In this document: one piece after another, positions 3,162 to 23,223 of the stretch
Numbering within the stretch: the stretch's first letter is position 1
Layout: the number at the start of each line of letters is the position of its first letter
From: a virus
Strand: one strand, 5' to 3'
DNA: 23,244 nucleotides
IMG/VR virus record: IMGVR_UViG_3300007539_006604
Location: 1-23,244 of that record
Translations under genes and position numbers: made by a program
The notes under the pieces: generated by a model
What the model saw: the letters and a program-made list of their open reading frames with translations, nothing else
Told to the model about the DNA's origin: nothing
Database searches by the model: none

Positions 3162-4301
3162 TTAGTAGTTCAAGTTGTTGAACACACCCATGTGTTCTTC
3201 ACCCTTAATCTGCAAACCTTCCTCAGCGACAATCATCATTGAATCAGAGTCGCCAGTCTTAGCAAGAGAAACAGCGCGAAGCGGAGTCATAACCCGTCGC
3301 ACAATATTGCCCTGCTTGAGAAGGAACGCGTGACCTGGGTAAACCCAACGGTTACGGACTACAGAAACATCACCAAACTCAGTGACAATAACCGTTACCC
3401 GACGACGACCACGCATCGTATCAACATTAGTGACTCGCACAACATTCGTGTCAGTAACATTATTCAAATCAGTAAGTGACTTTGGATTCGCCATCAAAAG
3501 AAGCGGATCGCCACCCTGATCATACACAGTTTGCTGAAGCGTCTGAATATTAGCAACAGTTAAACTCGTAGCATTACTCGTATTAGTAGAAATTTGCTTA
3601 AACAAACCTTGAGTAGTACGCCGCTTGTTCACAGTATCGTTAGCAAGTTCCGAATAAAGGAACGCTTGTTCGCGACTAATAACATTTTCCTTAGTGCGCT
3701 GTGCAAGCTGGTGAGCTGCCTCGTTGCTGATGCCGTACTTGCGAACAAGCTGCTCGGTACGAGAAAGCCGCACCTTAGTAGGACCAAAAATTTGAGTCCG
3801 GTTAGACGAATCAGTACGATCAGTTACCCGAGTGTTTTCAGGGTCAGCACCTTCGTTTAACGCAGTGCCAATCTGATAAATAAAATCTCCGCTTGCGTGT
3901 GTAGTCGCTACGTCTGAACCCCATGAACGGGTTACGTCAAGAACATCTGCTGTTGCGTTATAACCAGTCACACGCATACGTTCTTGGTTGGTTTGCCCAA
4001 GATACAAAATATCACCGGTTGAGAACCGGGCACGAGTTCCGGCAGCAAGCGTAATTGTTCCATCAGCAGTAACAACAGCGCCGCCAAGAGTGCTTCGCGG
4101 AGTCAAAATTTCGTCGTCCATCCAATTGAACAACGTCTGACCAACCGGACGCGACGGAAGAATCATCGTACCGTCAGCATCCACACCGTTAATCATTGGA
4201 GAGTCGATGGGCGAAAGCATGTAAATAGCTTCGTCCATATCAACAATTACACCTACAGTTAAATCAAAACTAGTTGTAGGGTCATAAACGCCAGTAGCCA
4301 T
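3162..4301 (-). CDS. Major capsid protein, SU10/DUF5309-like
   Basis: This 379-residue protein starts at ATG 4301 with a good ribosome site (AAGGA, seven bases upstream). The N-terminus MATGVYDPTTSFDLTVGVIV is followed by a conserved-looking segment on placing the subunit (AIYMLSPIDSPMINGV) and NWMDDEI near residue 59, a layout typical of the SU10-type major capsid family (DUF5309, HK97 fold). Residues 67-145 form an inserted beta-rich domain with Gly/Thr-rich strands. Residues 170-230 form the long spine helix region (TEQLVRKYGISNEAAHQLAQ). The C-terminal half has P-domain-like strands and ends GEEHMGVFNNLNY. It lies after a scaffold-like gene and right before a strong terminator, as expected for the most highly made virion protein. 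The family assignment is from pattern memory and is fairly firm. Confidence 0.85.
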   Translation of the reverse strand: MATGVYDPTTSFDLTVGVIVDMDEAIYMLSPIDSPMINGVDADGTMILPSRPVGQTLFNWMDDEILTPRSTLGGAVVTADGTITLAAGTRARFSTGDILYLGQTNQERMRVTGYNATADVLDVTRSWGSDVATTHASGDFIYQIGTALNEGADPENTRVTDRTDSSNRTQIFGPTKVRLSRTEQLVRKYGISNEAAHQLAQRTKENVISREQAFLYSELANDTVNKRRTTQGLFKQISTNTSNATSLTVANIQTLQQTVYDQGGDPLLLMANPKSLTDLNNVTDTNVVRVTNVDTMRGRRRVTVIVTEFGDVSVVRNRWVYPGHAFLLKQGNIVRRVMTPLRAVSLAKTGDSDSMMIVAEEGLQIKGEEHMGVFNNLNY

Positions 4302-8567: not shown

Positions 8568-10946
8568 CTAAGTACCCATCATGTTTCGTAAAGTAGCAAC
8601 AGCAGAGCTCATATCACGTGCAAACACTTTGCTGCCTTGCTGCCGACGCATAGCAGAAACAGCGTAATCAGTAGGAGTTGCTGCAACCTCAATGTCTCTT
8701 ATCAAATTCGGCCCTACGTAATCGTCTGACAAACTTGTTGATTCTTCAGAGGTACGTTCAAATGGAACCGGTTCTACAAGATTGGTGTCAGGCGCAAAAC
8801 GAGTATTCGGGTCCATTTCAAATTGAAGTTCATTTCCGAACTGATCATAAAGTTTACTTAAACCAGTACGGCTATTAATAGCAGCACGACGATTACGTTG
8901 TCTAGCCAAATTAATTTGATTCTGTTGTTGTTCAACTAAGAAATTAATATTAGCTTGTCGGTATTCGCTTTCTTCGGCGCGGTACGCTTGTTTTAATTTT
9001 GCCAATTCGCTAGCACTTAACCGCTCACCAATTTCAGCACGCGAAACATCTGCAAACCGTGCGTCTAATTCTTCTTCTGATCTCACTGGAAATAACTGCT
9101 CAATACCAGCGACATCAAGACCAGCACCACCAGCATCATCAAAATCAAATATTTGAGCTACTTCGCTGAATACTCTGAATGCTTCACGACGTTTATCGTT
9201 TTGCACAGCCATTGCGTCACGGTTTGGGTCTAACGCAACAAGCATCCAAAATTCAGAGTTAGCTCGTTCGTCTGCTTCGCTAATAAACCCCCAGTTAGGA
9301 ATAGCACCATTACGAATAGCAGCATTGCCGTAAAGACCCATACCCCACAAACGTTTTTGCCATTCAATTAACTGTTGTTCGTTTAACCCATACATATAGT
9401 TTTGGGCGTCGCGTAAATTAATTTCGTTTTGCTCATATGCCCGAGTGCCGCGCTCTTGAACAGTTAAAAACTGTCCTTCTCCAATTGGCACAGGAGCAGG
9501 CTCAACTACGGTAGGACCAGTTGGTTCAAAAATATTTCGGTTTTCTTGCCCAACTCCAAGAATCGGATTGTATGAACTTCTTGAAATGCCGAAATCTTCT
9601 GGGTTAAAAGTAATTCTAAATCGTTCTGAACCTGCTGCCCCTCGAGCGCCCATGCCCTGAAAAGCATTGTCAAAAATAGTTCTAGCGTCACGCGATTCAG
9701 GTGTTGCACCAAAAATCCGTTGCATGTTAACTATGCTTTGGATTTGCGCCATTTCGTTGCGACTATACAATCCGGCTGCGCTACCAAATCCTGCATCAAA
9801 GAATGCCTGTGTTGCTTGTTCGTTAGCCACATCAGCTTGCAAATCTCCTAATGCGTCCGAAGCAATGATCTGCCCTTCTTCGCTGAACGTGCTGTTTTCT
9901 AACAGGTTATTTACTTGCACATTTGCGCGTGCGGCAGCATTAGGATAAACGCCAGAAAACGTATTTGCGATATTGCCAACATTTTCTATTTGAAATTGAG
10001 TATCAAACTCGCCTCGATTGTTGCCTCCACCTAATCCAAACTCAGTTGGAAACGCAGATAGGTGAAAATCACTAGCTTGCCATTCTTGTGCAAACTCTGT
10101 TACTTGCTCACTGTTTAATCCATGCAATCGTTCAAGTGAAATTTCTGGAAACAAAAGATCAGCTAATAAAAAGTAAGCTTTTACTTCATTTGCACTTGCT
10201 CTTTTAAACCAGTTCTCTGCATTTTTTTCTTCATCGCCAGCTCGCCACCAATTAGCCTGGCTTAATGTTTCATCTTCGTATACATCAACGTTGCTTACGT
10301 AAGCCATTAACTCCAATATTTGTCTTGACTCAAGATTTTGCTCAACAAACAACCAATTATAAAATTGATTTTGATCGTTGGGGTAATTTTCTTGGACGTA
10401 ATTAATGTTTCTGTTAGCCCACTGTCTCAACGACTCGCTTCCCGAAGGGTTTCTTGACAAACCTGTCGGTATCTCGTCAAGTGTTGGGCCTTCGACGACA
10501 GGAGGCTGGCTTTCAGTTTGAGAGCTTTCGATGGCAGGAAGCTCGCTCTCAATTTGTAAGCTTTCGACGGCAGGAAGCTGGCTTTCAGTTGTTAACTGCT
10601 CACCACTCGCAGCGTTTCTAATAGCAGGTGCTAAATCTTCTGGAGAAAATGTTCGTAATTTACTTTGCAAATCAACATTGTTCTGAACACTTTCAGCAAA
10701 CGCTTGTTCGTTTTCCGCAGCGCTTGTGCCATTTTCAGTTAAACGCTCAAATTCGGCAACAGCTTCTTGATGTTGACGAATTTCATTTCGTTTAGTTTCA
10801 ATTTCTTGTTGTCGTTCATACGTATATTGCTCATCTTGAGCATTTTCTAACTCAATTAACTCTTGCTCAGAGTCTCGATATTGTTCAATAGTCTGCTTTA
10901 ATTGAGTTAAATGAAATTGATAAACTTCTTCAAGTTGTTCAGCCAT
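8568..10946 (-). CDS. Large internal virion-type protein, 792 aa
   Basis: ATG at 10946 overlaps the stop of the giant gene by eight bases, with GAGGAG in front as ribosome site. The first 70 residues form a strongly charged coiled coil (QLKQTIEQYRDSEQELIELE). Residues 117-152 are three copies of a 12-residue unit (TESQLPAVESLQ and variants), probably a disordered spacer. The remainder is mostly helical and polar with Gln, Asn, Ala and aromatic residues, without membrane segments or catalytic motifs I recognise. A GFGSAAGLYSRNE segment in the middle and a basic C-terminal helix (QNQINLARQRNRRAAINSR) are notable. It is likely part of an internal core or ejection complex with its neighbours, judged by size, composition and position. 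A tail or head fibre role cannot be excluded. Confidence 0.7.
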   Translation of the reverse strand: MAEQLEEVYQFHLTQLKQTIEQYRDSEQELIELENAQDEQYTYERQQEIETKRNEIRQHQEAVAEFERLTENGTSAAENEQAFAESVQNNVDLQSKLRTFSPEDLAPAIRNAASGEQLTTESQLPAVESLQIESELPAIESSQTESQPPVVEGPTLDEIPTGLSRNPSGSESLRQWANRNINYVQENYPNDQNQFYNWLFVEQNLESRQILELMAYVSNVDVYEDETLSQANWWRAGDEEKNAENWFKRASANEVKAYFLLADLLFPEISLERLHGLNSEQVTEFAQEWQASDFHLSAFPTEFGLGGGNNRGEFDTQFQIENVGNIANTFSGVYPNAAARANVQVNNLLENSTFSEEGQIIASDALGDLQADVANEQATQAFFDAGFGSAAGLYSRNEMAQIQSIVNMQRIFGATPESRDARTIFDNAFQGMGARGAAGSERFRITFNPEDFGISRSSYNPILGVGQENRNIFEPTGPTVVEPAPVPIGEGQFLTVQERGTRAYEQNEINLRDAQNYMYGLNEQQLIEWQKRLWGMGLYGNAAIRNGAIPNWGFISEADERANSEFWMLVALDPNRDAMAVQNDKRREAFRVFSEVAQIFDFDDAGGAGLDVAGIEQLFPVRSEEELDARFADVSRAEIGERLSASELAKLKQAYRAEESEYRQANINFLVEQQQNQINLARQRNRRAAINSRTGLSKLYDQFGNELQFEMDPNTRFAPDTNLVEPVPFERTSEESTSLSDDYVGPNLIRDIEVAATPTDYAVSAMRRQQGSKVFARDMSSAVATLRNMMGT
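10490..10597 (-). repeat. Three tandem 36-base coding repeats
   Basis: Three adjacent 36-base units begin at 10490, 10526 and 10562. Shared parts on the plus strand include TTTCGAnGGCAGGAAGCT and GCTTTCAGTT-like pieces. They stay in frame and encode three 12-residue copies of a Glu/Ser/Pro motif in the 792-residue protein. The copy number may vary between relatives. Confidence 0.85.
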
Positions 10947-13900
10947 ACTGCAACTCCTCTACTTCAGCCAACCCAGGCTCAATCACACTGTTATAAAAAT
11001 GCAACGTCGTTGGGTTACGTCGCACATATGATTCCATAGTCGCGCGCATTCGTTGATCCAACTCTGCTCGATAATCTTTAACCATTTCAGCAGTACGACC
11101 AGTCAAAGCATCACGCTGCGCTCGGTACAACGCGTACAACTGATACAACCCATCTAACAATAAAAACTGTTGATCTTTGTCAAATCGGTCATCAACACGG
11201 TATTGTTCCCACTCGCTCAATACTTGAGTTCTACGTTGTTCGCCTTTGCCAGATGACCAATTAGCAGCAAACGCCGGATTAGCAGCCAAAAATTCTTGGC
11301 TTTGCCTTCGCCAACGATCATTTTCCTCTAACCGCAACCGAGTTTTTTCTGGCCCAGGATTCATTTGCCTAATAGCTTCAAGATTCCGTGTATGAATTCG
11401 ACGCAAATCCTGATACGGACCAATCGCAGCATTAAACTGTAACGTGTCGTAAAATTCCGTTAATTCATTTTTGCTACGCAAATTATGTGCCAGCATTTTG
11501 TTGTACGCAGCAAAATCAAATTGATCGTCGTTTTCCTTTTGGCCTAAAGGAATTAACCATGATCCTGCAAAAGCGTACCGGTTTAACAAATCTTCGTTTG
11601 AACGCATCCAATCCAAAGATTGTTCAGTTGGGATTCCAGAAACGCCAGTAACAGATGAACTCGCAAAAACAGTCCACGCAGTAGCATCAGGATTTTCTTT
11701 TAAGAACTGAGAAACAGCTTCATCCCACTCAAACCCTTGATCGGTTAATTCAAAAAGCCGAGCTCGAGGAATTTCATTTAATTCGTCAGCGTTAAGCCCA
11801 ACATTAGCCATCCAATTATCAGGGTCTAACGATAAAGCGTTATCACCAGTAATAATGTCCCCCGCTGAAGGAGGCGCAGGAGCTATGAACCCGTAAATAG
11901 CTTCAGTCAACGCCAGAATACGTGTCCAATTTTCGACACGATCCAGAAACGCCTGCTTTTCTGCGTAAGTTGCATCTTCTTCTAACCCATACCCATTAGC
12001 TTCAAGGTACTGAATTGCCCTGATACCCGCGCTAACGTGCCGCGAACCACTTGGGTCCCACATGGTAGTCGCTGCAATAACTCGTCGCAGAGAAGCGGGT
12101 ACAAGTACCTCATAGGCCCCACGATCTCCGATTTGGCCAGTGTGCAACGGGAACAAATCGTGTTCGACAATTGGCGCCAACTCAGGGAACCTATTTTTAA
12201 ACGCACCTAATCCTAAGCCAAGAACTGGGCCAGGTGACGGCTTCCATAAACCATCCAAACCAGGCAAAGACATTTTCAATTCGCCGGTTAATGGCATGGC
12301 TATAGGTAAATGAGCGTCTTTGCCTGAAACAAGTGACCATGAACGAGCAATAACGTCAGTCGCAACCGCAGAACCAGGCATAACAAAAATATCTTCACCA
12401 GTTTCAGGGTTAGACATAATTGTGCCAGACGATTTCATGCCGTGATACAACAGTTGGAGGCGACGGATACCTTCAGGGCTTTCCGCAAAAGCTCGGGTCC
12501 AACGTTTAATAAATTGTTCAGTGGCAAAATGGAACGGGATGTAGTTTCCTGTCCATTGTTGGAACTGTGATCTTAAACGATGGTCATCAACAAAACGTAT
12601 TGCTGCCCGGAACGCTCGTTCTGTTGCCATAACTTGCGTTTGGGCACGCACAGATGCGTCATTTTTGTACGCTCTGTTTACCATTTTGAATGTTTCCGCA
12701 TTCATACTTGCTAAATGTGCAGGTACTGGGATTTTGTTTGCGTAAGCTTCGTCTAACCAATTCGTAAACTGCCCATACGTTTTTACTTGATTTCTAACAG
12801 AAATATCAAACAAATGCATTACGTAATCAAGATCACCCGTTTGCATATGTTTGTCAACGCCGCGCATAATTTGATGAGCTTTAGCAAACAGTTCATCCCC
12901 GGTTTTTGCTTGGTCTCCTACCGTTGACAAAATTTTATTCCAATTTGTAGCCAACGTATAATCAGGCAAATGCGGCAAACCAGCACTTAGTCCTAAACGT
13001 TTTAAAGCTAAGTCAAGAATTTCAAACTCATCTTCGCGTAACATCGCGTAATCAATATGTGCGGGTTTCGCTTTAACATCAGGTTTCGACGGTTGATCTT
13101 TAAACCGTTTCTTGCTTAACCAATACCGCGAATTTTCATTATGCGTTTTGTTATACAACTCTTGCGTTTCGCCCCATAACGACTGGCTACGCATTCGTTT
13201 TACGTTTGCTTCGGCAAGTCTCATTGCACGCAAATATTCCATTGTGTATAACGGTTGCCGCGCAATTGAATCAACAGCCGCAGTAATGTGGTTGAACCCA
13301 AATTTTTTAATTCGCTCCCACATTGCGTCTTGCCCAACAGCTTTATACGTAGGCATTGCAAAAATTTGTTTAGCGTTTGATGCTTCCGATACGTGAGTAG
13401 GGCTAAATAAAGTGTTGCCAAATGATGTGTCTGCACTAACAAGTTGATGTCCAATAAATTCATGAACCAACTCATTGTCATCAGGGTTGTAAAACAGCTC
13501 TGCGTAACGTCTTTCAATCGCTTCTGCGTGCATACGAGTTAAGGTTTCAGCAGTAACCCCTTCAACAGCTTCGCCATCAATAATTTGAATTGGGTTATTG
13601 CCAAACTGATCAAACGAAAGCCAAGTTTCAACAGGAATATCAAACGCTTCCGCTTGCTCAAACGATGCGTCAGTTCTTTTAATTAACCTATTTTCACTTG
13701 TTGCAATATTTAATTCTTCAGTTGTAACATTCCTGTAAAACGGCAACTCATCCAAATAAGATTGCGGGTCTAAACCTAAAACCTCATCTAAAGTTTCGTT
13801 AAAAGCTTTTTGCACTCGCAGGGCTTGTTCGTAATTAGAAAATGCAAGCCCTTGAAGTATCGCGGGAAACGGTTGGGTAAATTCTCCAACACCCTTATTT

Positions 13901-16900
13901 AATTCTCGCAATCCCGACACATAAGGGTAGCGAGGCGAATTAGGCGGTTGCTGTTGCGCGAATTCACGGCCACGCATTAAACGTCGAATAACGTTTTCAG
14001 GCAAACCTTTTTCAGTTAACAACGATTCAAGTTGAAATGCTTGTTGATCATTCAATTGATACATCATGTATTGACGGTTATTGTCAACAGCAGGGGCATA
14101 CAATCGAATTTGCCCAGGAGGAATAGCTTCTGCCAACATTTCATTATTAGGCCCACGACGTGAACGCACCATGCCTCTTACAAGAGGCTCAAGTTCAGCA
14201 GTTCCTAAAAGTTGTTCCGCTTGTTGGCGCAATATAAATCGCAGTTCTTCAAATGAATCAACAAAGTCATCGACTCGTTGTGTAAGAGCGCCTTGAATTA
14301 CAGACCTAGTATCAGCTCCTAAATTTAAAACTTCGTCTAACCATTCTTCAAACCGCGCTTGATTAAAACTATCATTCACGCGATTAGGCGAAATATTGTT
14401 AGGATAAACTCTAAACCCAAAAGGTTTAGTTTCTTTTACAGTTTCAATTAACCGCAATCTGGCAAGTTCATTTGACGGGTTTGCTAATAAAAGTTTGAAA
14501 TCAGAACCAAGCAAATTGTACTGAGATTGCAAGTTTCTAAGTACTTGAATATAAGTTTGCCCATTAAGCCCTGATTCTTCAAGCTTTCGGCGCACGGATG
14601 GATTGACGTAACGAGTTAATGTCCGAAGCAAATTTTGCTCAAGAACACCATTCCCAGCGCGACTAACTTGCGAATGAACACCCTGCAAGTAATACGGGTC
14701 GCCAGGTGTTCCTAAAACCCAACCTGCATCACGATCAATAATTACTTGTTGACGTTGGCCTATCTGAAGTAACTCATCAGGATCATTTAATTGCAATTGC
14801 CCTGACGTAAACAACTCAGCAACTGAAGCATTGCCAGACATAGTTTGTCTTGCCCATTGTTCAGCGGCAGCATTTGGAGTTGCCAACATTTTGTTCATGT
14901 ACCGAATGTTTTCCCAATCATCAACAGCCATTACTGTTTTAGGGTCACGCGACAAAGCACCCTTAATTTGATCAGGTTTATATCTGTTAATTGTTAAACC
15001 AGTTAACGTTTGAGCCGCATCCAAATATTGTTCATCAAAATTGTCAAGAATTTGAGCGTTTTCAATTTGCAACAGTTGACGTGTAAAAATTAAATCTTTA
15101 GTCCCGTTTACGCCTAGCCACGACAGCGGCCTTTGAAGTGCAGTATCTGGATTATTAATGGTTGCACGCAACTGTTGACGAACAGCGTTAGTCGCGTACA
15201 CATACATCTTTTCAGCAACGCTAATTTGTGAATTGCCGAACAAGCGATGCCGATATTCAGGGCCAATCATTTCATTGTAAATGTTCCCTAAATCAATAAG
15301 CTCCCTTACATCAGGGTCGTCCCAAGCTATTGAACGTTCAATATCCGGGTCTTTGCGAATTTTTTTAGCCAACCTGTTTTGATACCACTGCCCGGTAGGC
15401 AACAACCCACCAGCAATACGATTTGTTTCTGGGTCAATGCGAATATCATCAGCAGCAAATCGCAAAATCTTGCCACCAATAAAATCTTGCGGTTTGCGGA
15501 ACAATTGATTTAAAAGTTCTTCACCAGCAGCTCGAGGGATAAAACCAAGGCGTAGCAACACTGACGGTTTCCATATTTGCTGCATCCCACTTTCAAGCCA
15601 TTGAGGGTTTGCCCACCCATGTACTTGACGCATGTAATTATGTTTCCTGCTAACAGCAAGCAAATCCCTAAAATCAGGTATACGCATTGCATTAGCGTGA
15701 TCTGCTTGCGGCAAAACACCGTGTGGCCCACCGCCGTACACATTCAAATCTTCAGCGACACCATAACGGCCACTGTGATTCTTCAACTTGCTTAATAACC
15801 CGTTAATTGCGTCTGGGTCAGCAGCTTTTAAACCACTAGCGGTAAAAATACCGTCGTACAAAGATTCGATCCCTTTGCGCTGAAGCACAGGATCATTACT
15901 AGTTAAAACTTCTACCCAACCACGCTTAACAGATGTTGGCAAATTAAATAACGTGCCAACAGATTCGACAATATTAATAAAGTCTTGCGTGTTTTGTGAC
16001 GCTAAGGTTCCTTCAAAATTTATAACTGTCCCACTCAAAGGAACTTGCCGAGTCAAAACTTGTGCTAAACGCGCAGCGTTACTAAAAACATTTAAGTTAA
16101 GATTGCGTCCAGCAACTTGCACATCACTACCATAAAGCAAAGCTTTAAGGAACAAACCATTTTCATACTTCTCACGCAACCACGAAGTAGTTACACTTTC
16201 CGTAATCCGATCAGACAACCCAAGCGAAGCATCCCACACATCTCCATATTCAATTACTAAATCGTCAACAGATCGTTGACTCGTAGGCGCAGCAAAAAAG
16301 TCGATAGCATCATGAGCAGTAGCAGACGAAAACAGTTTACGGTGACCTTGTTTTGTCAACATGGGAAGTTCTACCCAATCGCGACGAACAGGCACACGCC
16401 CGCTCGATATCGCTGCGATACCTGCGTCACTCTGAAGAAACTTGAAAACGTCGTCCGCAGATTGAATTATTTGATCTCCCTCGATGAGTTTATTTTTGAG
16501 AGAATTGACAATCGGGATTACTTGCGGCACCTCTTGGAGCAAATCAGCCACGCCGTTTTCACTATTAAAAGCAACAGCAATGCGGTCAAGGGTGTTCTCA
16601 AACGCTTCCCCAACAGTCAAAGCTTCACCTGTTTGCCCTCCTCGCCGCAAAGAAGAACGAATTCCACTAGTACCAAAAGCACCGAGTTTTTCTTGCGAGT
16701 TGCGCAATACTTCCAAACGCTCAAAAATGTCCTCAGTTTTGTTGATGCCACGTCTAGCAAGGCGACTGGATTTTGCTGCACTACCGACAATCAAAAACGG
16801 ATCAGTAGCTATTAACCAAGCTGCGTCAACACTGCCACTTAACACGTTGTATGGCGCGCTTCCAGGGTCAAGCCAAGTAAATGAGCGTGCAATAAACCTG

Positions 16901-17907
16901 CCAAACGATTGCTTTCCGAGCTCTAACTCTTTTTGAGCATTCGCAAACGCCGGGTCAGCTTGCAACTGCGAAATTTCACGCATTGCTTGTTCATACTCAG
17001 GTGTACCAGGAGCAAATTGTGTTGCTGCTAATTCTTGAACACTGACACCTGCTGCTAATTCTTCAGCTAAATGCAACGCATCTAAATCGCCGTTTAAAAG
17101 TTCCTTAGCATTATCAACGGCGTACTTGCGAAAATAAGTATCACCATCGTAAGTTTCACGAAACGCGTCGGTAAACGCTCGAGGGTTACCTGCCAAAAGC
17201 GACGCCCCCATGCTGACACCCAAACCAGCTAACATTCCTGACGTAAGAGCAGTTCCACCAACTCCAAGAACACTCGCTACGCCTAATGCTCCCAACCCCC
17301 CGTAAACCCACGCGGCTGTGCCCCCAGTCGCAGCAATAACAAGAGCAGCAACAGCCGGATTTTCAATATCAATTCCAATATTTTCTAATGTTGCATCAAG
17401 CGTTCTAAAAACATGACCGGCTCTGTCACCTGCCCACGACAAACCATCTAAGGTGACTTCTGTAACATCTTTTAAACCAGCACGAATTGGTTCAGGAACT
17501 GCCCCAACAATAGGTTCAGCAACGTTATTAAACGTTCGCCAGACAGAACCCATCCACCCCCCGTCGCCGCCATCAAACGACGGCTGTACCCCGTAATGAC
17601 GAGTAAGCAAATTGCGTTGATTCGCATCTAACTGCGAAAACACAACTTTTTGTTCTTCGGGTGGCAAATGAACAAATTCAGTTGCAAACCGTTGCATTTG
17701 CAAACGATGCGTCGCTTCTTGCAACTGCGTCACATCAATTTGCTGGTTCTGCACCATCATCGCATACAACTGCGGGTCTTGAGCTAACACAGGGTTAGCG
17801 GCAAAACGTTCCGCTTTTTGAATTGCGTCCCAACCAATTAAATCGTTAGACGACAAATTCGACGGGTTATACCCGTCGGAATCAACACCAGAAAAAACAT
17901 AAACCAT
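10939..17907 (-). CDS. Giant internal virion/ejection-type protein, 2322 aa
   Basis: ATG at 17907 shares its A with the upstream TAA (TAATG). At nearly 7 kb this is close to a third of the window and is unbroken. Residues 184-240 are Gly/Ala-rich and hydrophobic (AVAALVIAATGGTAAWVYGG, then repeated Gly-Leu-Gly-Val stretches), long enough for two or three membrane passes and the only such region. The rest is helical and soluble-looking, with a conserved-looking block near residues 1775-1830 (FQQWTGNYIPFHFATEQFIK) and a charged C-terminal helical end. I find no polymerase, protease, helicase or transglycosylase motif by eye. Its size, the single membrane-active patch and its position with lysozyme-like and LysM partners suggest a protein carried in the head and ejected through the envelope, as T7 gp16-type or N4-type giant virion proteins are. 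Homology to these is not shown. Confidence 0.72.
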   Translation of the reverse strand: MVYVFSGVDSDGYNPSNLSSNDLIGWDAIQKAERFAANPVLAQDPQLYAMMVQNQQIDVTQLQEATHRLQMQRFATEFVHLPPEEQKVVFSQLDANQRNLLTRHYGVQPSFDGGDGGWMGSVWRTFNNVAEPIVGAVPEPIRAGLKDVTEVTLDGLSWAGDRAGHVFRTLDATLENIGIDIENPAVAALVIAATGGTAAWVYGGLGALGVASVLGVGGTALTSGMLAGLGVSMGASLLAGNPRAFTDAFRETYDGDTYFRKYAVDNAKELLNGDLDALHLAEELAAGVSVQELAATQFAPGTPEYEQAMREISQLQADPAFANAQKELELGKQSFGRFIARSFTWLDPGSAPYNVLSGSVDAAWLIATDPFLIVGSAAKSSRLARRGINKTEDIFERLEVLRNSQEKLGAFGTSGIRSSLRRGGQTGEALTVGEAFENTLDRIAVAFNSENGVADLLQEVPQVIPIVNSLKNKLIEGDQIIQSADDVFKFLQSDAGIAAISSGRVPVRRDWVELPMLTKQGHRKLFSSATAHDAIDFFAAPTSQRSVDDLVIEYGDVWDASLGLSDRITESVTTSWLREKYENGLFLKALLYGSDVQVAGRNLNLNVFSNAARLAQVLTRQVPLSGTVINFEGTLASQNTQDFINIVESVGTLFNLPTSVKRGWVEVLTSNDPVLQRKGIESLYDGIFTASGLKAADPDAINGLLSKLKNHSGRYGVAEDLNVYGGGPHGVLPQADHANAMRIPDFRDLLAVSRKHNYMRQVHGWANPQWLESGMQQIWKPSVLLRLGFIPRAAGEELLNQLFRKPQDFIGGKILRFAADDIRIDPETNRIAGGLLPTGQWYQNRLAKKIRKDPDIERSIAWDDPDVRELIDLGNIYNEMIGPEYRHRLFGNSQISVAEKMYVYATNAVRQQLRATINNPDTALQRPLSWLGVNGTKDLIFTRQLLQIENAQILDNFDEQYLDAAQTLTGLTINRYKPDQIKGALSRDPKTVMAVDDWENIRYMNKMLATPNAAAEQWARQTMSGNASVAELFTSGQLQLNDPDELLQIGQRQQVIIDRDAGWVLGTPGDPYYLQGVHSQVSRAGNGVLEQNLLRTLTRYVNPSVRRKLEESGLNGQTYIQVLRNLQSQYNLLGSDFKLLLANPSNELARLRLIETVKETKPFGFRVYPNNISPNRVNDSFNQARFEEWLDEVLNLGADTRSVIQGALTQRVDDFVDSFEELRFILRQQAEQLLGTAELEPLVRGMVRSRRGPNNEMLAEAIPPGQIRLYAPAVDNNRQYMMYQLNDQQAFQLESLLTEKGLPENVIRRLMRGREFAQQQPPNSPRYPYVSGLRELNKGVGEFTQPFPAILQGLAFSNYEQALRVQKAFNETLDEVLGLDPQSYLDELPFYRNVTTEELNIATSENRLIKRTDASFEQAEAFDIPVETWLSFDQFGNNPIQIIDGEAVEGVTAETLTRMHAEAIERRYAELFYNPDDNELVHEFIGHQLVSADTSFGNTLFSPTHVSEASNAKQIFAMPTYKAVGQDAMWERIKKFGFNHITAAVDSIARQPLYTMEYLRAMRLAEANVKRMRSQSLWGETQELYNKTHNENSRYWLSKKRFKDQPSKPDVKAKPAHIDYAMLREDEFEILDLALKRLGLSAGLPHLPDYTLATNWNKILSTVGDQAKTGDELFAKAHQIMRGVDKHMQTGDLDYVMHLFDISVRNQVKTYGQFTNWLDEAYANKIPVPAHLASMNAETFKMVNRAYKNDASVRAQTQVMATERAFRAAIRFVDDHRLRSQFQQWTGNYIPFHFATEQFIKRWTRAFAESPEGIRRLQLLYHGMKSSGTIMSNPETGEDIFVMPGSAVATDVIARSWSLVSGKDAHLPIAMPLTGELKMSLPGLDGLWKPSPGPVLGLGLGAFKNRFPELAPIVEHDLFPLHTGQIGDRGAYEVLVPASLRRVIAATTMWDPSGSRHVSAGIRAIQYLEANGYGLEEDATYAEKQAFLDRVENWTRILALTEAIYGFIAPAPPSAGDIITGDNALSLDPDNWMANVGLNADELNEIPRARLFELTDQGFEWDEAVSQFLKENPDATAWTVFASSSVTGVSGIPTEQSLDWMRSNEDLLNRYAFAGSWLIPLGQKENDDQFDFAAYNKMLAHNLRSKNELTEFYDTLQFNAAIGPYQDLRRIHTRNLEAIRQMNPGPEKTRLRLEENDRWRRQSQEFLAANPAFAANWSSGKGEQRRTQVLSEWEQYRVDDRFDKDQQFLLLDGLYQLYALYRAQRDALTGRTAEMVKDYRAELDQRMRATMESYVRRNPTTLHFYNSVIEPGLAEVEELQYG

Positions 17908-18317: not shown

Positions 18318-20221
18318 TACCGCATACCTTTCTGTGTTGCACCAATCAGATTAAACAACCCTCTCTGGTTAGCGTTCGGTTCAAACGTTGAAGGAGCTTC
18401 AGGAAGATTTGCATTTTCGACAGGCAACCCCTGCAAACCTGGCACTTGATCTGCACCCATCGGGTTAGCACCAGGCAATGCTCCCATTTGGACACCTTCC
18501 ATTTGTTCTTGTTGTTCAGCAAGCAACGCTGCTTGACGTTCCTGCGATGCTCTTTGCATTTCTTTTACAGACGCTAACAAAGATTCACCTTTTTCAAGTT
18601 GTTCCCCGAGAACAATTTGATCTTCAATAGACAACGTTTGATTCTCAATGCCAACTTCAATGAAACGACGCAAACTGCGCTCTAATGCTTCCTGGTCAAC
18701 TTTCTTTTTAGTGGTTTCCGCATCAGGAATATGCGGATGAGCCATACGGAAATCGTCCATTGAAATAGCTTCAATAGCCAACATTTGACTTAGTTCAACA
18801 GTCAACCTACTACTAGACGCTCCAGGCACAGAATACTGCGTTGCATTCCACCGCGAATCCAAATGCGTTTTCGGGCTAAAACGAGCAATCTCAGAATGCC
18901 CACGATTACCAGTAAACACAACATACTTTTTAGAAGGCCAATAAACGTTGTAAGCTTCAATTACACGCTCATTCATTTTGGTTGCCCAAAATTCACCGAT
19001 TTCGTGATACTCTTGAATACGCGGTTCGGCAGCAGAACTAAAAATAGCTTCATTAGCTCGACCAGTACGCAAACCCCCACCCGGTGTTTCACCCATCATT
19101 TGAGGCAGCAAACCAGCAGACGTTTTTGCGTTGCGTTCCAAACGATCCATCCCAATTTTCACATTCGGATCAGGACTGTTACCTAACGTAAAAACTTGTT
19201 CAGCGTTTAAAATAATATTTGGTTCGCCGTCAATGCCATCATGCCACCTACCGCCAACAAGCGTAGGAGGATTAGTCGACGAACCAACAATAACCCGATC
19301 AGGGAAAATACTTCGCTCAGACGACAAAATATCTAACGCCATAAGACGCGACTGCAAATCAGTCATACTTAAAATGTGTGCAACTTGAGAAACAGTTTTA
19401 TCAAGCGACACACGTTCAGGCATCAAAACCGTACACATACCCAACGGATTCGGTGACCAATGCAACGGCATATGTGTTTCTCGACCAATTTCACGATGCG
19501 CCCGATAGATCGGCGTATCACGTGGCCCCAAAATACCCCACACTCGTTGCTGTTCATCAACCCACTCAACAAGTTCCCACATCTGCGGGCCTTCAGGATC
19601 AATAACACCCTTCCGACCGTAAGAATCCCGCATCTGCGACGAAGCAAACGGGAACATTCGCAACACAGCATCCTTGTGCAACACATGCACAATGCCTGCC
19701 GACTTCGGTGGAGTCATCGTCCCATTAGTAACTTCTTCAGGATAAACACCTAATGGGTCTAAAACCTGAATGCGAGGAACCTCATGTTCCCAATCGCACA
19801 CAAGATTCATCGCAAACGTAGAATAACCGGCAAGTTGCCGGTACCATTTACGCCACAACAATTTGCCGCCGCTCATATACCAGACATAATCCAAAGACTG
19901 TTTACGCTTACGTGCGTTCATGTCCGCTTTTTTTTCACCCGGATTCATCGACGGACAAAAAATGTTAGGCGACACAGAACCAGCCATCATGCCGGTATGG
20001 TCAATAGCATCAGTGACAATAGCAGGGCCAAGAGGCGGCAAATCCGGCCCAGCATCAGAACCCGGATACGGCACAGCCCACTCACCGTTATACCGGTGCA
20101 TCACATCCTGCATGTGATCTAACAAAACTGAACGATTTTCGCGCCGCAATTCCATCTCACGATAAATCACAGGCCAAACAGCCCACAACATATCGTTATT
20201 AGTAACCATTGGATTATGCAT
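18317..20221 (-). CDS. Portal protein, 634 aa
   Basis: The frame also has a GTG at 20239, but ATG at 20221 makes the TAATG overlap with the terminase stop that recurs in this operon, so I place the start there. The protein has the size and feel of a podovirus-type portal. It has an N-terminal helical part with many aromatic residues (YREMELRRENRSVLLDHMQD) and a wing with strands leading to DPLGVYPEEV near residue 160. The crown side begins after a stem-like segment (TSAGLLPQMMGETPGGGLRT, with GRANEAI), and the C-terminal helical barrel-like region is rich in Glu and Gln (LLASVKEMQRASQERQAALL) before a disordered Pro/Gly tail. It forms the dodecameric DNA channel at one head vertex and docks the terminase. 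The direct neighbourhood of the terminase supports the call. No single diagnostic motif exists for this family. Confidence 0.8.
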   Translation of the reverse strand: MHNPMVTNNDMLWAVWPVIYREMELRRENRSVLLDHMQDVMHRYNGEWAVPYPGSDAGPDLPPLGPAIVTDAIDHTGMMAGSVSPNIFCPSMNPGEKKADMNARKRKQSLDYVWYMSGGKLLWRKWYRQLAGYSTFAMNLVCDWEHEVPRIQVLDPLGVYPEEVTNGTMTPPKSAGIVHVLHKDAVLRMFPFASSQMRDSYGRKGVIDPEGPQMWELVEWVDEQQRVWGILGPRDTPIYRAHREIGRETHMPLHWSPNPLGMCTVLMPERVSLDKTVSQVAHILSMTDLQSRLMALDILSSERSIFPDRVIVGSSTNPPTLVGGRWHDGIDGEPNIILNAEQVFTLGNSPDPNVKIGMDRLERNAKTSAGLLPQMMGETPGGGLRTGRANEAIFSSAAEPRIQEYHEIGEFWATKMNERVIEAYNVYWPSKKYVVFTGNRGHSEIARFSPKTHLDSRWNATQYSVPGASSSRLTVELSQMLAIEAISMDDFRMAHPHIPDAETTKKKVDQEALERSLRRFIEVGIENQTLSIEDQIVLGEQLEKGESLLASVKEMQRASQERQAALLAEQQEQMEGVQMGALPGANPMGADQVPGLQGLPVENANLPEAPSTFEPNANQRGLFNLIGATQKGMR

Positions 20222-22062
20222 TAAAACGCCTGTCTCCACTCTAAATAACTTTTACCCATAGATTCGTAAGAGTTATTAAAACTCCAATCCTGGGAACCAG
20301 CCCCAGGAAGAATATTTGTTTGGCGTTCTTTCCAAAGAATCCAACAAAACCAAAACGCCATTAATCTATCCTGCCGCAACGACTTGCCGCTAGCTTTTGG
20401 TCGCCAAGAACGCAACTCCGCAATCAACGGCTCCATACGAGCACGCGTTAAATGATCTTCAGCCCAAGGAATTTCCACCAAACCACGCCCCATAGATAAC
20501 GGAATTTGTGGAATACCATGATTTTCATCGTACTTATTTTTGCCAGTATTGTGACCGCGAACTCTTACACCCCACTTCGACTGCAACTCCAACAAACGGT
20601 CATCTAAAATCATGCCTTTTTGAAACGAGTTCGCTTCAATCACAACATCAGTAACCTGATGCCCCAAACTATGCCACTGCATAATCACAGACTCAAGTAA
20701 TGCCCAAATTTGTTCATAACGAGTAAACCCAGGCTCCGCACGCGAATCCAACACACGCACATAATTACGCCCCAAATCGTCAACAATATGCTGCAAAACA
20801 CAAATTGCTGTAACACCACCAATAGCCGGATCTAACCCCACATAAATAGGAGCACCCATAAACGGCTCAGAATTAACAGACAAACCAGGCCGCAAAGACG
20901 AATCAATACTATTCTCATCAAACGTAGACGCACCCGCAGCTCGAGGCTTCTGCATATAGTTACGCCACCAAGCCTCCTCCCCCACATTACGCCGCATCCG
21001 CTCATACTCCTCCGGCGAATACCGCTCAGGCCACAAATACTCCCCATCATCATTAATCGCCGGAAAAATAATCAGATGATCAACCAAACCCTCATCTAAC
21101 AAACGCTCATAAACATCACCCTCCCCCACACGCGTCCCATTAATCCACGTAAACCCCTTAGTCCCAGGACGCGACAACCAATCCTGCCGAAACGTTTCCA
21201 ACACCGAAGCAGCCTGATTGAAATTACGCAACGACATCACATCATCAACCAACAACATCTGCGTCCGAGTCCCCGCAATACCAGACCCAATCCCCAACGC
21301 CTGCATCGAAAACTCACGATCATCAAACGACCCCTTCTTAAAAACATCAAACGCCTCAGCACCCCAAGGCTGACGATTCGCATTCCGACCCTTTTGAGGC
21401 TCAAACGGACCAAAATAACGAACATAATCAGGCACCGGACCAGAAATCTCCATCCGCTGCTGAACACGCTTCAAAATCTTCTTCGACATATCCTGACGCT
21501 CCGACCCCACACAAATCGTAAAATCAGGATCTAACGCCAAACGATAAGAACAATAATCCTCAGCAAACGTCGTCTTACCATGCTCAGGAGGAAACAAACA
21601 CATCAAAATATCCCCACCCTTCACACGCCCAGAATCAACAACCGCCGCAACTTGAGCATGAAAAAACGGAGAAGTCATACCAAAAAAATGCTCACGAAAC
21701 TCAACAAACCGGCCACGCCAACCCTCACGCGAATCCGGCAAACCCTCACGACCAGACACCGCCAACACAGCATCCACATACGCCGCAAACGCAGGCCAAC
21801 GAGAACGATTCTGCGAATACGCCTGCTGCGACCAACCCACAAACTCACGCGCAGCAGAAACCTTCCCAATCCCCGACTCCAACACCCTCAAAAAAATCTC
21901 ACGCTTCTGAAACCCCGAAGCCTTCCCCCTAAAAAACTCCCTAAACCTCTCATCAACAACACCCCCATCAACCACCCCCTGAACCCAACCAGGCACCTTC
22001 ACAGACCCACGATCCAAATCCTTCACCCCAGCACCATCAAAACGCCTAAAACCATCAACCAT
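20221..22062 (-). CDS. terL: Terminase large subunit with N-terminal helix-turn-helix-like extension, 613 aa
   Basis: Starts are possible at GTG 22089, ATG 22074 and ATG 22062; none has a clear ribosome site, and I chose the last. The packaging ATPase is shown by Walker A PPEHGKTT (residues 158-165) and Walker B LLVDD (270-274). The RNase H-like nuclease is shown by GLDP (D411), VIEAN (E476) and RQDR (D565), a complete set of acidic residues. Residues 53-101 precede the ATPase and look like the helix-turn-helix of small terminase subunits (IFLRVLESG, VSAAREFVG, WPAFAAYVDA). No separate small-subunit gene lies in the window, so both jobs may sit in one chain. The first half of the gene has a coding strand extremely rich in G and T and poor in C, a bias that fades toward the portal gene. 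It docks on the portal and pumps DNA into the prohead. Confidence 0.9.
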   Translation of the reverse strand: MVDGFRRFDGAGVKDLDRGSVKVPGWVQGVVDGGVVDERFREFFRGKASGFQKREIFLRVLESGIGKVSAAREFVGWSQQAYSQNRSRWPAFAAYVDAVLAVSGREGLPDSREGWRGRFVEFREHFFGMTSPFFHAQVAAVVDSGRVKGGDILMCLFPPEHGKTTFAEDYCSYRLALDPDFTICVGSERQDMSKKILKRVQQRMEISGPVPDYVRYFGPFEPQKGRNANRQPWGAEAFDVFKKGSFDDREFSMQALGIGSGIAGTRTQMLLVDDVMSLRNFNQAASVLETFRQDWLSRPGTKGFTWINGTRVGEGDVYERLLDEGLVDHLIIFPAINDDGEYLWPERYSPEEYERMRRNVGEEAWWRNYMQKPRAAGASTFDENSIDSSLRPGLSVNSEPFMGAPIYVGLDPAIGGVTAICVLQHIVDDLGRNYVRVLDSRAEPGFTRYEQIWALLESVIMQWHSLGHQVTDVVIEANSFQKGMILDDRLLELQSKWGVRVRGHNTGKNKYDENHGIPQIPLSMGRGLVEIPWAEDHLTRARMEPLIAELRSWRPKASGKSLRQDRLMAFWFCWILWKERQTNILPGAGSQDWSFNNSYESMGKSYLEWRQAF

Positions 22063-22136
22063 AAAAACCAACATAACACTTGCAACCACACAACCAAACC
22101 CCTACACTCAAAACACACACACCGTGTCCCCACTAA

Positions 22137-22288
22137 CCCTGGGTGAATCGCCCGTCAGAGGGGCCGGTGCCCCCACGCCTCAACACACCTGGGCAAAGAC
22201 GTTGCGACATACCGCGCGTGGGGCAGACCCGCAAAGGCCAAAGCGAGGTCAAGGCAAAAGCAGCCTCAATGCTTGGAGGGACCCAGGG
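22137..22288 (+). ncRNA. Candidate structured RNA with nested perfect helices
   Basis: The outermost helix pairs CCCTGGGT (22137-22144) with ACCCAGGG (22281-22288), eight of eight. Inside it CCCCACGC (22171-22178) pairs perfectly with GCGTGGGG (22216-22223). A hairpin GACCCGC/GCGaGGTC (22226-22250) has seven pairs, one bulged A and a ten-base loop AAAGGCCAAA. Local helices also fit at GCCC/GGGC (22150-22164) and CCTC/GAGG (22264-22279). These helices nest without crossing. Unpaired plus-strand bases are rich in A, which favours the rightward strand as the RNA. Nothing matches tRNA, tmRNA or RNase P, and I see no class I know. It could be an untranslated leader, a regulatory RNA, a packaging RNA or a DNA-level cruciform region. 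The pairing is seen; transcription is not shown. Confidence 0.45.
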
Positions 22289-22359
22289 AAAACCACACCC
22301 AAAAACACCCCCACACCCACACCGTCACCGTCACCGCAACACACACCAACCTAAGACGT

Positions 22360-22386
22360 TTATTAAAGGGACGGGGGTACTGGCAA
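22360..22386 (-). promoter_or_regulatory. Weak candidate promoter toward the terminase
   Basis: On the minus strand TTGCCA (22381-22386) matches the -35 consensus at five of six. TAATAA (22360-22365) lies 15 bases further on, inside the only AT-rich patch of this region. The spacing is shorter than the ideal 17, so the call is weak. If used, it would send transcripts leftward through the foldable block into the terminase gene. Confidence 0.22.
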
Positions 22387-22389
22387 TCA

Positions 22390-22434
22390 AGTCCTGAGCC
22401 GGTGGGCACCACGTGCCGAGCCGAGGCTCGGACT
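22390..22434. other. Compact fold with two mutually exclusive pairings
   Basis: AGTCC-T-GAGCC (22390-22400) pairs with GGCTCGGACT (22425-22434), ten pairs with one bulged T, and encloses a perfect hairpin GGCAC/GTGCC (22405-22417). The same 3' part can instead form a local hairpin CCGAGCC/GGCTCGG (22416-22422 with 22425-22431). Both cannot exist together, which is the arrangement of attenuators and switches. It may equally be a protein-binding palindrome in DNA. Confidence 0.45.
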
Positions 22435-22443
22435 CGTGCGCCA

Positions 22444-22490
22444 CCTGTCCCCACACACAGGCATGCCAGGTTCCTGCCCCCACACACAGG
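22444..22490. repeat. Two 18-base direct repeats, 29-base period
   Basis: CCTGTCCCCACACACAGG (22444-22461) recurs as CCTGCCCCCACACACAGG (22473-22490) with one change. The start-to-start distance is 29 bases. Each copy has complementary ends (CCTGT/ACAGG in the first). Such pairs can be iteron-like or operator-like binding sites; two copies are too few to say more. Confidence 0.65.
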
Positions 22491-22494
22491 TCGA

Positions 22495-22578
22495 CCACCA
22501 CACACCCACACCACACCACACACCCACACACCAAACAAAACACACACCACACCCATCACACACTCAACAAAACCACAA
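22495..22578. repeat. C/A low-complexity tract
   Basis: Almost every plus-strand base here is C or A, in CACACC, ACCCACA and ACAAAACC pieces. It forms the left side of the abrupt composition switch and codes for nothing credible. Confidence 0.85.
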
Positions 22579-22722: not shown

Positions 22723-22791
22723 GGGTTGTTTGGTATGTGTGGTTATGGGTTGGTTGTTGGTGAGTTGAGAGACAGAGAGACGACCATGACT

Positions 22792-22800
22792 GGAGGAGGT
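22792..22800 (+). promoter_or_regulatory. Strong ribosome binding site of the pentapeptide gene
   Basis: GGAGGAGGT lies six bases before ATG 22807 and is the strongest Shine-Dalgarno match in the window. It decides the start against the in-frame ATG at 22786 and the longer frame from 22726. No rightward promoter is convincing in the G/T tract. Confidence 0.85.
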
Positions 22801-22806
22801 CAACTA

Positions 22807-23223
22807 ATGAACATCGACTTGTCTGAAGTGCTTAGGCTGCACGAGCTGTGGCTTGAAGGCGATCCGGCGGGGTGTCGTGCGGTCCTGCCCAGGGCAAACC
22901 TGATCGAGGTGAACCTGGCTGGTGCGAACCTGGTCGGTGCGTACCTGGCCGGGGCCGACCTTTACAAGGCAAACCTGGTCGGTGCGGACCTGGCCGGTGC
23001 CGACATGGTCGGTGCGATCCTGCACAGGTCGAACCTAACCGAGGCAAACTTGGGCGGTGCGGACCTGGTCGAGGCGGACTTGTACAGGGCGAAGCTGACC
23101 AGAGCGGACTTGTACTGGGCGAACCTGTACAACGCCTACTTGTCCGACGCCGACCTGACGGGAGCCGACCTCACCAGTGCGAACCTGACGGGTGCCAACC
23201 TGTCAGGTGCTCTCATGCCCTAG
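22807..23223 (+). CDS. Pentapeptide-repeat protein, 138 aa
   Basis: The start at 22807 is fixed by the strong ribosome site. Residues 1-27 form a short helical head (MNIDLSEVLRLHELWLEGDP), a pattern seen before pentapeptide repeats in actinobacterial and phage proteins. From about residue 28 to the end run roughly twenty A-(D/N)-L-x-x units (ANLVGAYLAGADLYKANLVG), which fold into a right-handed square beta helix. No enzyme or membrane part is present. Known members of this superfamily include DNA mimics such as MfpA and Qnr that bind gyrase, but most have no known role, and no Qnr- or MfpA-specific feature is visible. It is the only plus-strand gene, is clearly GC-richer than the others, and may begin a rightward early or regulatory operon that continues beyond the window. 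Confidence 0.88.
   Translation: MNIDLSEVLRLHELWLEGDPAGCRAVLPRANLIEVNLAGANLVGAYLAGADLYKANLVGADLAGADMVGAILHRSNLTEANLGGADLVEADLYRAKLTRADLYWANLYNAYLSDADLTGADLTSANLTGANLSGALMP

Follow-up and report, generated by a model that had tools for sequence, protein, structure and literature searches.

The virus record analysed here (the window, a complete IMG/VR virus record of 23,244 nt, G000) contains a stretch of non-coding DNA between two divergent genes, that of the terminase large subunit on the minus strand and that of a pentapeptide-repeat protein on the plus strand. A first-pass annotation had read 22137–22288 as a possible new structured RNA with three nested helices, and had remarked on the adjoining packaging gene, recalling the packaging RNA of phi29-type phages while adding that nothing in the sequence showed such a function. 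The sequences on which this reading relied are all in place: CCCTGGGT (22137–22144) and ACCCAGGG (22281–22288), CCCCACGC and GCGTGGGG, GACCCGC and GCG-A-GGTC, the loop AAAGGCCAAA, and GGCC at 22162–22165. The locus raises the question of whether such an RNA exists, how it folds and what it might do for the virus.

A search with the terminase returned L001, which is the same virus, L002 (65%) and L003, and a search with the terminase alignment returned 80 loci, mostly on more distant contigs. With the window's non-coding region as query, blastn and nhmmer matched L074 (blastn E ~3e-7) and L051; it was by these searches (through L074) that the window was first tied to its relatives, independently of the training of covariance model R1. 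A 17-base core matched ten further loci, always on the strand opposite the terminase, and the core TCGCCCGTMARANGGGC with C-rich sequence after it turned up in 39 viral stretches and in one 5.7-kb contig of an Actinomycetota MAG (isolate RS391). On other phage contigs, about 35 distinct relatives adopt a common fold. R1 was built from 34 sequences, with the window included and the A4 mycobacteriophages left out; it matches the window, itself one of the training sequences, at 22125–22292 with 96.2 bits (E ~2e-23, E-values from covariance models being rough). A single copy per record was found in 24 of the 36 whole records searched with R1. Blastn of the elements of the window, L089, L104 and L112 against named phages gave no matches.

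Several candidates were set aside. L144, L145/L149, L150 and L155 scored ~12–18 bits, hardly more than the core hairpin alone would give, and were put down to chance; the pattern CAANNNNNGGRNGGGACCCARGG occurred at only two loci, both in repetitive, seemingly coding sequence. The virus with the next-closest terminase, L002, carries a 1.5-kb non-coding region upstream of that gene, which was rejected as a homologue, its best full-length model match being 7.1 bits on the opposite strand. This structure-rich sequence contains two copies of CCCTCCGCCCTTCCAGTC..GGCGGCTAGAGGGCTTCC on the minus strand, at ~3740–3781 and ~3930–3972. A locus in L147 (974–1107, minus strand), with the core hairpin, a long P2 and TGCTATAGT upstream, scored 22 bits with model R2 and is a probable further, more divergent member of the family.

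Comparison of the relatives bore out a structured RNA at this locus. In a hand alignment of 34 distinct sequences, 1252 of 1351 cells pair. Total covariation reached 10.2, whereas none of 300 structure-free alignments simulated along the inferred tree exceeded 1.85, and the individual covariation of P0, P1, P2, P4, P5, P6 and P7 was in each case reached by 0 of 300 simulations, although the covariation in this test is inflated by a hand alignment that was made knowing the structure. The alignment produced by the model, counted by a separate tool, agrees with the hand alignment: 88.4% of positions were paired (77.0% when shuffled, at most 47% when slid), two-sided changes were seen in 19 of the 30 aligned pairs, and covariation over these pairs was 0.280, compared to 0.102 when shuffled and at most 0.082 when slid. 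Among the relatives the core is 141, 142, 143, 144, 145 or 147 nt long, and since these lengths differ by 1–2 nt no reading frame is kept.

Folding energy, the test that the first-pass annotation had itself proposed, would not have supported a structured RNA: the single sequence folds at −61.0 kcal/mol versus −56.8 ± 4.4 kcal/mol for shuffles (z −0.96), and 41 of 200 shuffles were at least as good. The fold energy of the downstream stretch 22350–22520 was likewise not significant (z −0.79). The A-richness of the unpaired bases (36% A) was discarded as a sign of RNA because the flanks are nearly as A-rich. The claim of novelty held as well, since neither the window's element nor its homologues matched a family of Rfam 15 at gathering, and a permissive search gave only a chance match of 17.4 bits. 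Collectively, the covariation, the promoter box at the 5' end, the frame-breaking lengths and the published RNA-seq over the region of a divergent homologue (PMC4626039) make it almost certain that the element is a genuine, conserved RNA, irrespective of what it does. Its standing as a previously unclassified pseudoknotted RNA family, new with respect to Rfam 15 and the open-licence literature, is supported. The features of the locus are given in Table 1.

Table 1. The RNA element of the window, its helices and its neighbours.
Feature	Position	Strand	Remarks
Terminase large subunit gene	20221..22089	−	phrog_38, E 1e-47; divergent from the RNA; start at or before 22089
Predicted promoter	22080..22108	+	−35 TTGCAA (22080–22085), 17 bp, −10 TACACT (22103–22108)
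P1 hairpin	22113..22127	+	ACAC/GTGT; weak in the window and assigned there by position only
Non-coding RNA	22115..22288	+	both ends predicted, 5' by the promoter and 3' by the final conserved motif
P2 hairpin	22129..22143	+	CCCA (22129–22132)/TGGG (22140–22143), 7-nt loop
P3 hairpin	22150..22164	+	GCCC-GTCAGAG-GGGC, invariant core; sequence conservation only; also the search seed
P4	22168..22225	+	TG(C)CCCCACGC (22168–22178)/GCGTGGGGCA (22216–22225), 37-nt loop
P5	22226..22250	+	GACC-CGC/GCG-A-GGTC, loop AAAGGCCAAA
H-type pseudoknot P6/P7	22252..22274	+	two interleaved helices
P6	22252..22255/22263..22266	+	AGGC/GCCT
P7	22258..22262/22270..22274	+	AAGCA/TGCTT
Conserved 3' segment	22275..22288	+	GGAGGGACCCAGGG; relatives nearly identical (GGAGGGACCCAAGGG and variants)
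Conserved motif 3' of the RNA	22353..22384	−	possible leftward promoter, facing the terminase and antisense to the RNA
Pentapeptide-repeat protein gene	22726..23223	+	PF00805, E 2e-46; 3' of the RNA, same strand

Hand reading and the model alignment give the order of the fold of this ~175-nt RNA as P1, P2, P3, P4, P5, the H-type pseudoknot P6/P7 and then the 3' segment, and P2-P3-P4-P5 with P6/P7 can all be written in the window in the same order as in the relatives. In most non-mycobacterial relatives P1 is a 6-bp helix crossed by a 5' pseudoknot, P0, and P0/P1 covariation is seen across 30 relatives. Compensatory changes occur in all five aligned pairs of P2, and two-sided changes in five of the nine of P4; the GCCC/GGGC of P3 is unchanged in 36 of 36 distinct rows and hence provides no covariation evidence. 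P5 appears among the relatives as GACC/GGTC, GTAG/CTAC, GAAC/GTTC, GGAT/ATCC and GCATC/GATGC, P6 as AGGC/GCCT, AGGT/ACCT, GAGT/ACTC, AAGT/ACTT and CAGT/ACTG, and P7 as AAGCA/TGCTT, GAGCA/TGCTC, CCGT/ACGG and CTGG/CTAG. A further pairing, of the P2 loop (CCCT) with a 3' AGGG, has GCCT/AGGC in L112 but competes with P2 and was left out.

This fold retains part of what had been drawn from the window alone. The second and third helices of the first-pass annotation are P4 and P5, both conserved with compensatory changes. Its outer helix, CCCTGGGT/ACCCAGGG, makes 8 of 8 pairs in the window only, with 3–5 of them formed in relatives carrying the 3' motif, and it uses a TGGG that belongs to the conserved local hairpin P2. 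P2, the invariant P3 and the 3' pseudoknot P6/P7 had been missed, and the supposed GGCC kissing loop is peculiar to the window, its place being taken in relatives by AGGAC, AAGAC or unrelated loops. The 5' edge had been placed ~20 nt too far in.

A looser core pattern led to eight contigs of ~51 kb scoring 24–26 bits; blastn placed these in mycobacteriophage subcluster A4 (148 of 192 Mycobacterium phage records at ≥95% identity). The A4 members Kampy, Peaches and Backyardigan score 24–25 bits with R1, a model built without A4. Their element, unannotated, begins ~580 bp in from the right end, is on the early strand and lies ~400 nt before the first early gene. P1–P4 match, as does the position right after the early promoter; the 3' half barely matches, with a partial GGCAGGGAC segment visible and the 3' pseudoknot not recognisable. 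A bridge is provided by L157 (30.8 bits), which has an A4-like 5' half (CAGCAAGTTCTCCC..GGGAGTCAG) and a window-like 3' end (GGCAGGGACCCAGGGG). From sequence and predicted pairing, the A4 element is very probably homologous to the window RNA; we stop short of a firmer statement because the A4 loci were found through the core-hairpin pattern, so that about half of the 25 bits was preselected (the core alone gives ~13–15 bits). L157 also carries a type II hammerhead ribozyme (RF02276, 54.7 bits, above gathering) at 613–678 on the minus strand, ~1.3 kb downstream of its RNA element on the same strand and between two predicted ORFs.

This link connects the family to published transcription data. 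In Kampy, the unannotated region upstream of gene 88 had the highest coverage, accounting for 41% of phage transcription at 5 min and 51% at 15 min; a 5' read pile-up was reported near 50,400, and the authors, who saw no conservation of the region beyond A4, put forward neither a structure nor a family for it (PMC4626039). We predict the Kampy RNA at ~50,795–50,610 of record KJ510414. The reported pile-up lies ~200 nt downstream of it, and the abundant species may thus be a different portion of this transcript. In the cluster A2 phages L5, D29 and StarStuff, an abundant, stable ncRNA of ~500 nt is found at the same genome position; it is processed to smaller pieces with a common 5' end, its locus is toxic to M. 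smegmatis, and an L5 deletion that removes the first part of the Pleft transcript is viable (PMC5712189). Model searches gave no match to the family in D29, RedRock, Bxb1, Rockstar, Puppy or BTCU-1, and the D29 right end gave none with R1 or R2 with filters off (L5 was not among the phages compared). The L5/D29 RNA is thus an analogue by position only.

We propose that the RNA would be made at the start of early transcription, behind its own promoter, and that, to judge from the mycobacteriophage relatives, it would form the opening part of the early transcript, stable and present in very large amounts. It may then act in trans as a structured RNA, which is the least certain step; its probable target would be a host machine, for instance RNA polymerase or the ribosome, with phage takeover of the cell as the expected outcome. 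The viruses probably infect Actinomycetota, a host that for the window's virus is suggested by its mycobacteriophage relatives and the one MAG contig. On our analysis, the chances that this RNA is a trans-acting early takeover RNA are evenly balanced, which still makes it the most likely of the readings considered. A more specific version can be offered only tentatively: a new class of pseudoknotted RNA serving marine and mycobacterial Actinomycetota phages as an early weapon, which would be produced in very large amounts straight after infection and would bind, and inhibit or redirect, a core host machine, as a viral counterpart of 6S RNA.

The same arrangement would also suit a leader that acts in cis on its own polymerase, allowing it to pass pauses or terminators that precede the early genes, in the manner of HK022 put. 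The element starts at a promoter and is followed by a long non-coding stretch, with the first same-strand gene ~400 nt beyond it in the window and likewise in Peaches; it occurs in one copy per record; and put is a known precedent for action by nascent RNA (PMC9378689). In L5, however, most transcripts stop before the genes and levels fall by >90%, and the RNA builds up as a stable species (PMC5712189), something not required of an element that works only while nascent. We regard the cis-acting leader as the main rival, though a doubtful one.

The trans-acting reading takes the plus strand as the functional one. Of 35 distinct upstream sequences, 28 carry an extended −10 box (TGnTAnnnH) 3–14 nt before the first helix, compared to 1.7% of background positions. 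The window has the TAnnnT part of this box, without TG; in the L074 group TGATACCAT overlaps the first helix; and the A4 phages carry TTGACA-N17-TAGMGT immediately 5' of the first hairpin. A −10 box is found at the element's 5' end in every lineage, which favours the plus strand. Were the functional molecule instead the minus strand, it would be the structured 5' leader, or an antisense part, of a leftward transcript that is fired from the conserved motif to the right of the element and enters the late operon. Substitutions of the GU type for the minus strand are indeed at least as common as those for the plus strand (16 AC versus 7 GU events), and the downstream motif, which reads CAGAC(A/G)..TATA..GGGGG..GGYACATCC in many relatives and was aligned with that of the window by eye, resembles a conserved leftward promoter, leaving room for transcription of the other strand as well. 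The strand is not settled by wobble pairs, whose counts become 8 versus ~7 once three poorly kept pairs are dropped, and the A4 relative is on the strand of early leftward transcription, where its P1 has several GU pairs. Taken together with the promoter box, this makes the plus strand the highly likely functional strand and a minus-strand molecule unlikely.

Two other observations concern the DNA beyond this motif. Two near-identical 18-bp repeats, CCTG(T/C)CCCCACACACAGG, at 22444–22461 and 22473–22490, have complementary ends and are possible operator sites. At ~22605 strand composition flips sharply, from CA-rich on the left to GT-rich on the right, both on the plus strand, as if both divergent transcripts were GT-rich.

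The genomic setting was then compared among relatives. The RNA is opposite in orientation to the terminase in 13 of 13 loci with both, as well as in the window, G028 and G032, and over the 13 loci it lies 0.3–4.9 kb from that gene (2.9–4.9 kb in 12 of them). Early or replication genes are found on its far side, such as a beta clamp in G028 and SSB in G001. Position and orientation indicate that the RNA marks the late/early divide, and that the proximity of the terminase in the window is incidental. In the window's late operon, a 2322-aa ORF (10939–17907, minus strand) has no PHROG match, and very large ORFs also occur 3' of a portal-like gene in G001 and G032. The location on the early/replication side of the divide might suggest a replication RNA, either a primer or an origin RNA of the kind known from plasmids whose origins are under RNA control; nothing resembling a replication origin was recognised, and we consider this role quite improbable. 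A packaging RNA like that of phi29, as hinted earlier from the adjoining terminase gene and the self-complementary GGCC loop of the window, is the most improbable of all, because the RNA invariably faces away from the late/terminase operon and in most relatives is separated from the terminase by kilobases, the GGCC loop is not conserved and Rfam gives no match.

The role of the Kampy early RNA region has been open since 2015, and the region was thought to be unconserved outside its subcluster (PMC4626039). A structural model is now offered for an element within this region, which gives about half of early phage RNA, and the element is placed, on the homology argued above, in a family spread across uncultured phages. 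The model and the family membership together provide base pairs and conserved loops that can be tested. Our results also add a well-supported pseudoknotted RNA family that is absent from Rfam 15.

Among known systems, phi29 pRNA resembles the window RNA in being a phage RNA beside a packaging gene, in the window only; the family differs from it in having no constant linkage to the terminase, no conserved loop-loop pairing (GGCC being confined to the window) and no Rfam match. GOLLD and ROOL, like this family, are conserved structured RNAs carried by phages for which no protein partner is known, but they are large and ornate, whereas the family RNA is far smaller and matches neither in Rfam. 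HK022 put is a small two-hairpin element. The family shares with put a structured RNA that opens an early phage transcript, here by promoter position and with a presumed operon; unlike put, it has four to five helices plus pseudoknots and no recognised sequence relation, and antitermination is hypothetical here. The A2 Pleft ncRNA of L5, D29 and StarStuff is comparable to the family's A4 members in genome position, early promoter and general architecture, but no sequence or structure match was found in D29 or RedRock, both among the phages listed in PMC5712189. The A4 early RNA region, as in Kampy, differs from the window RNA in that no 3' pseudoknot domain can be recognised, yet like the window RNA it is non-coding, lies on the early strand after the early promoter, and carries P1–P4 together with a partial GGCAGGGAC.
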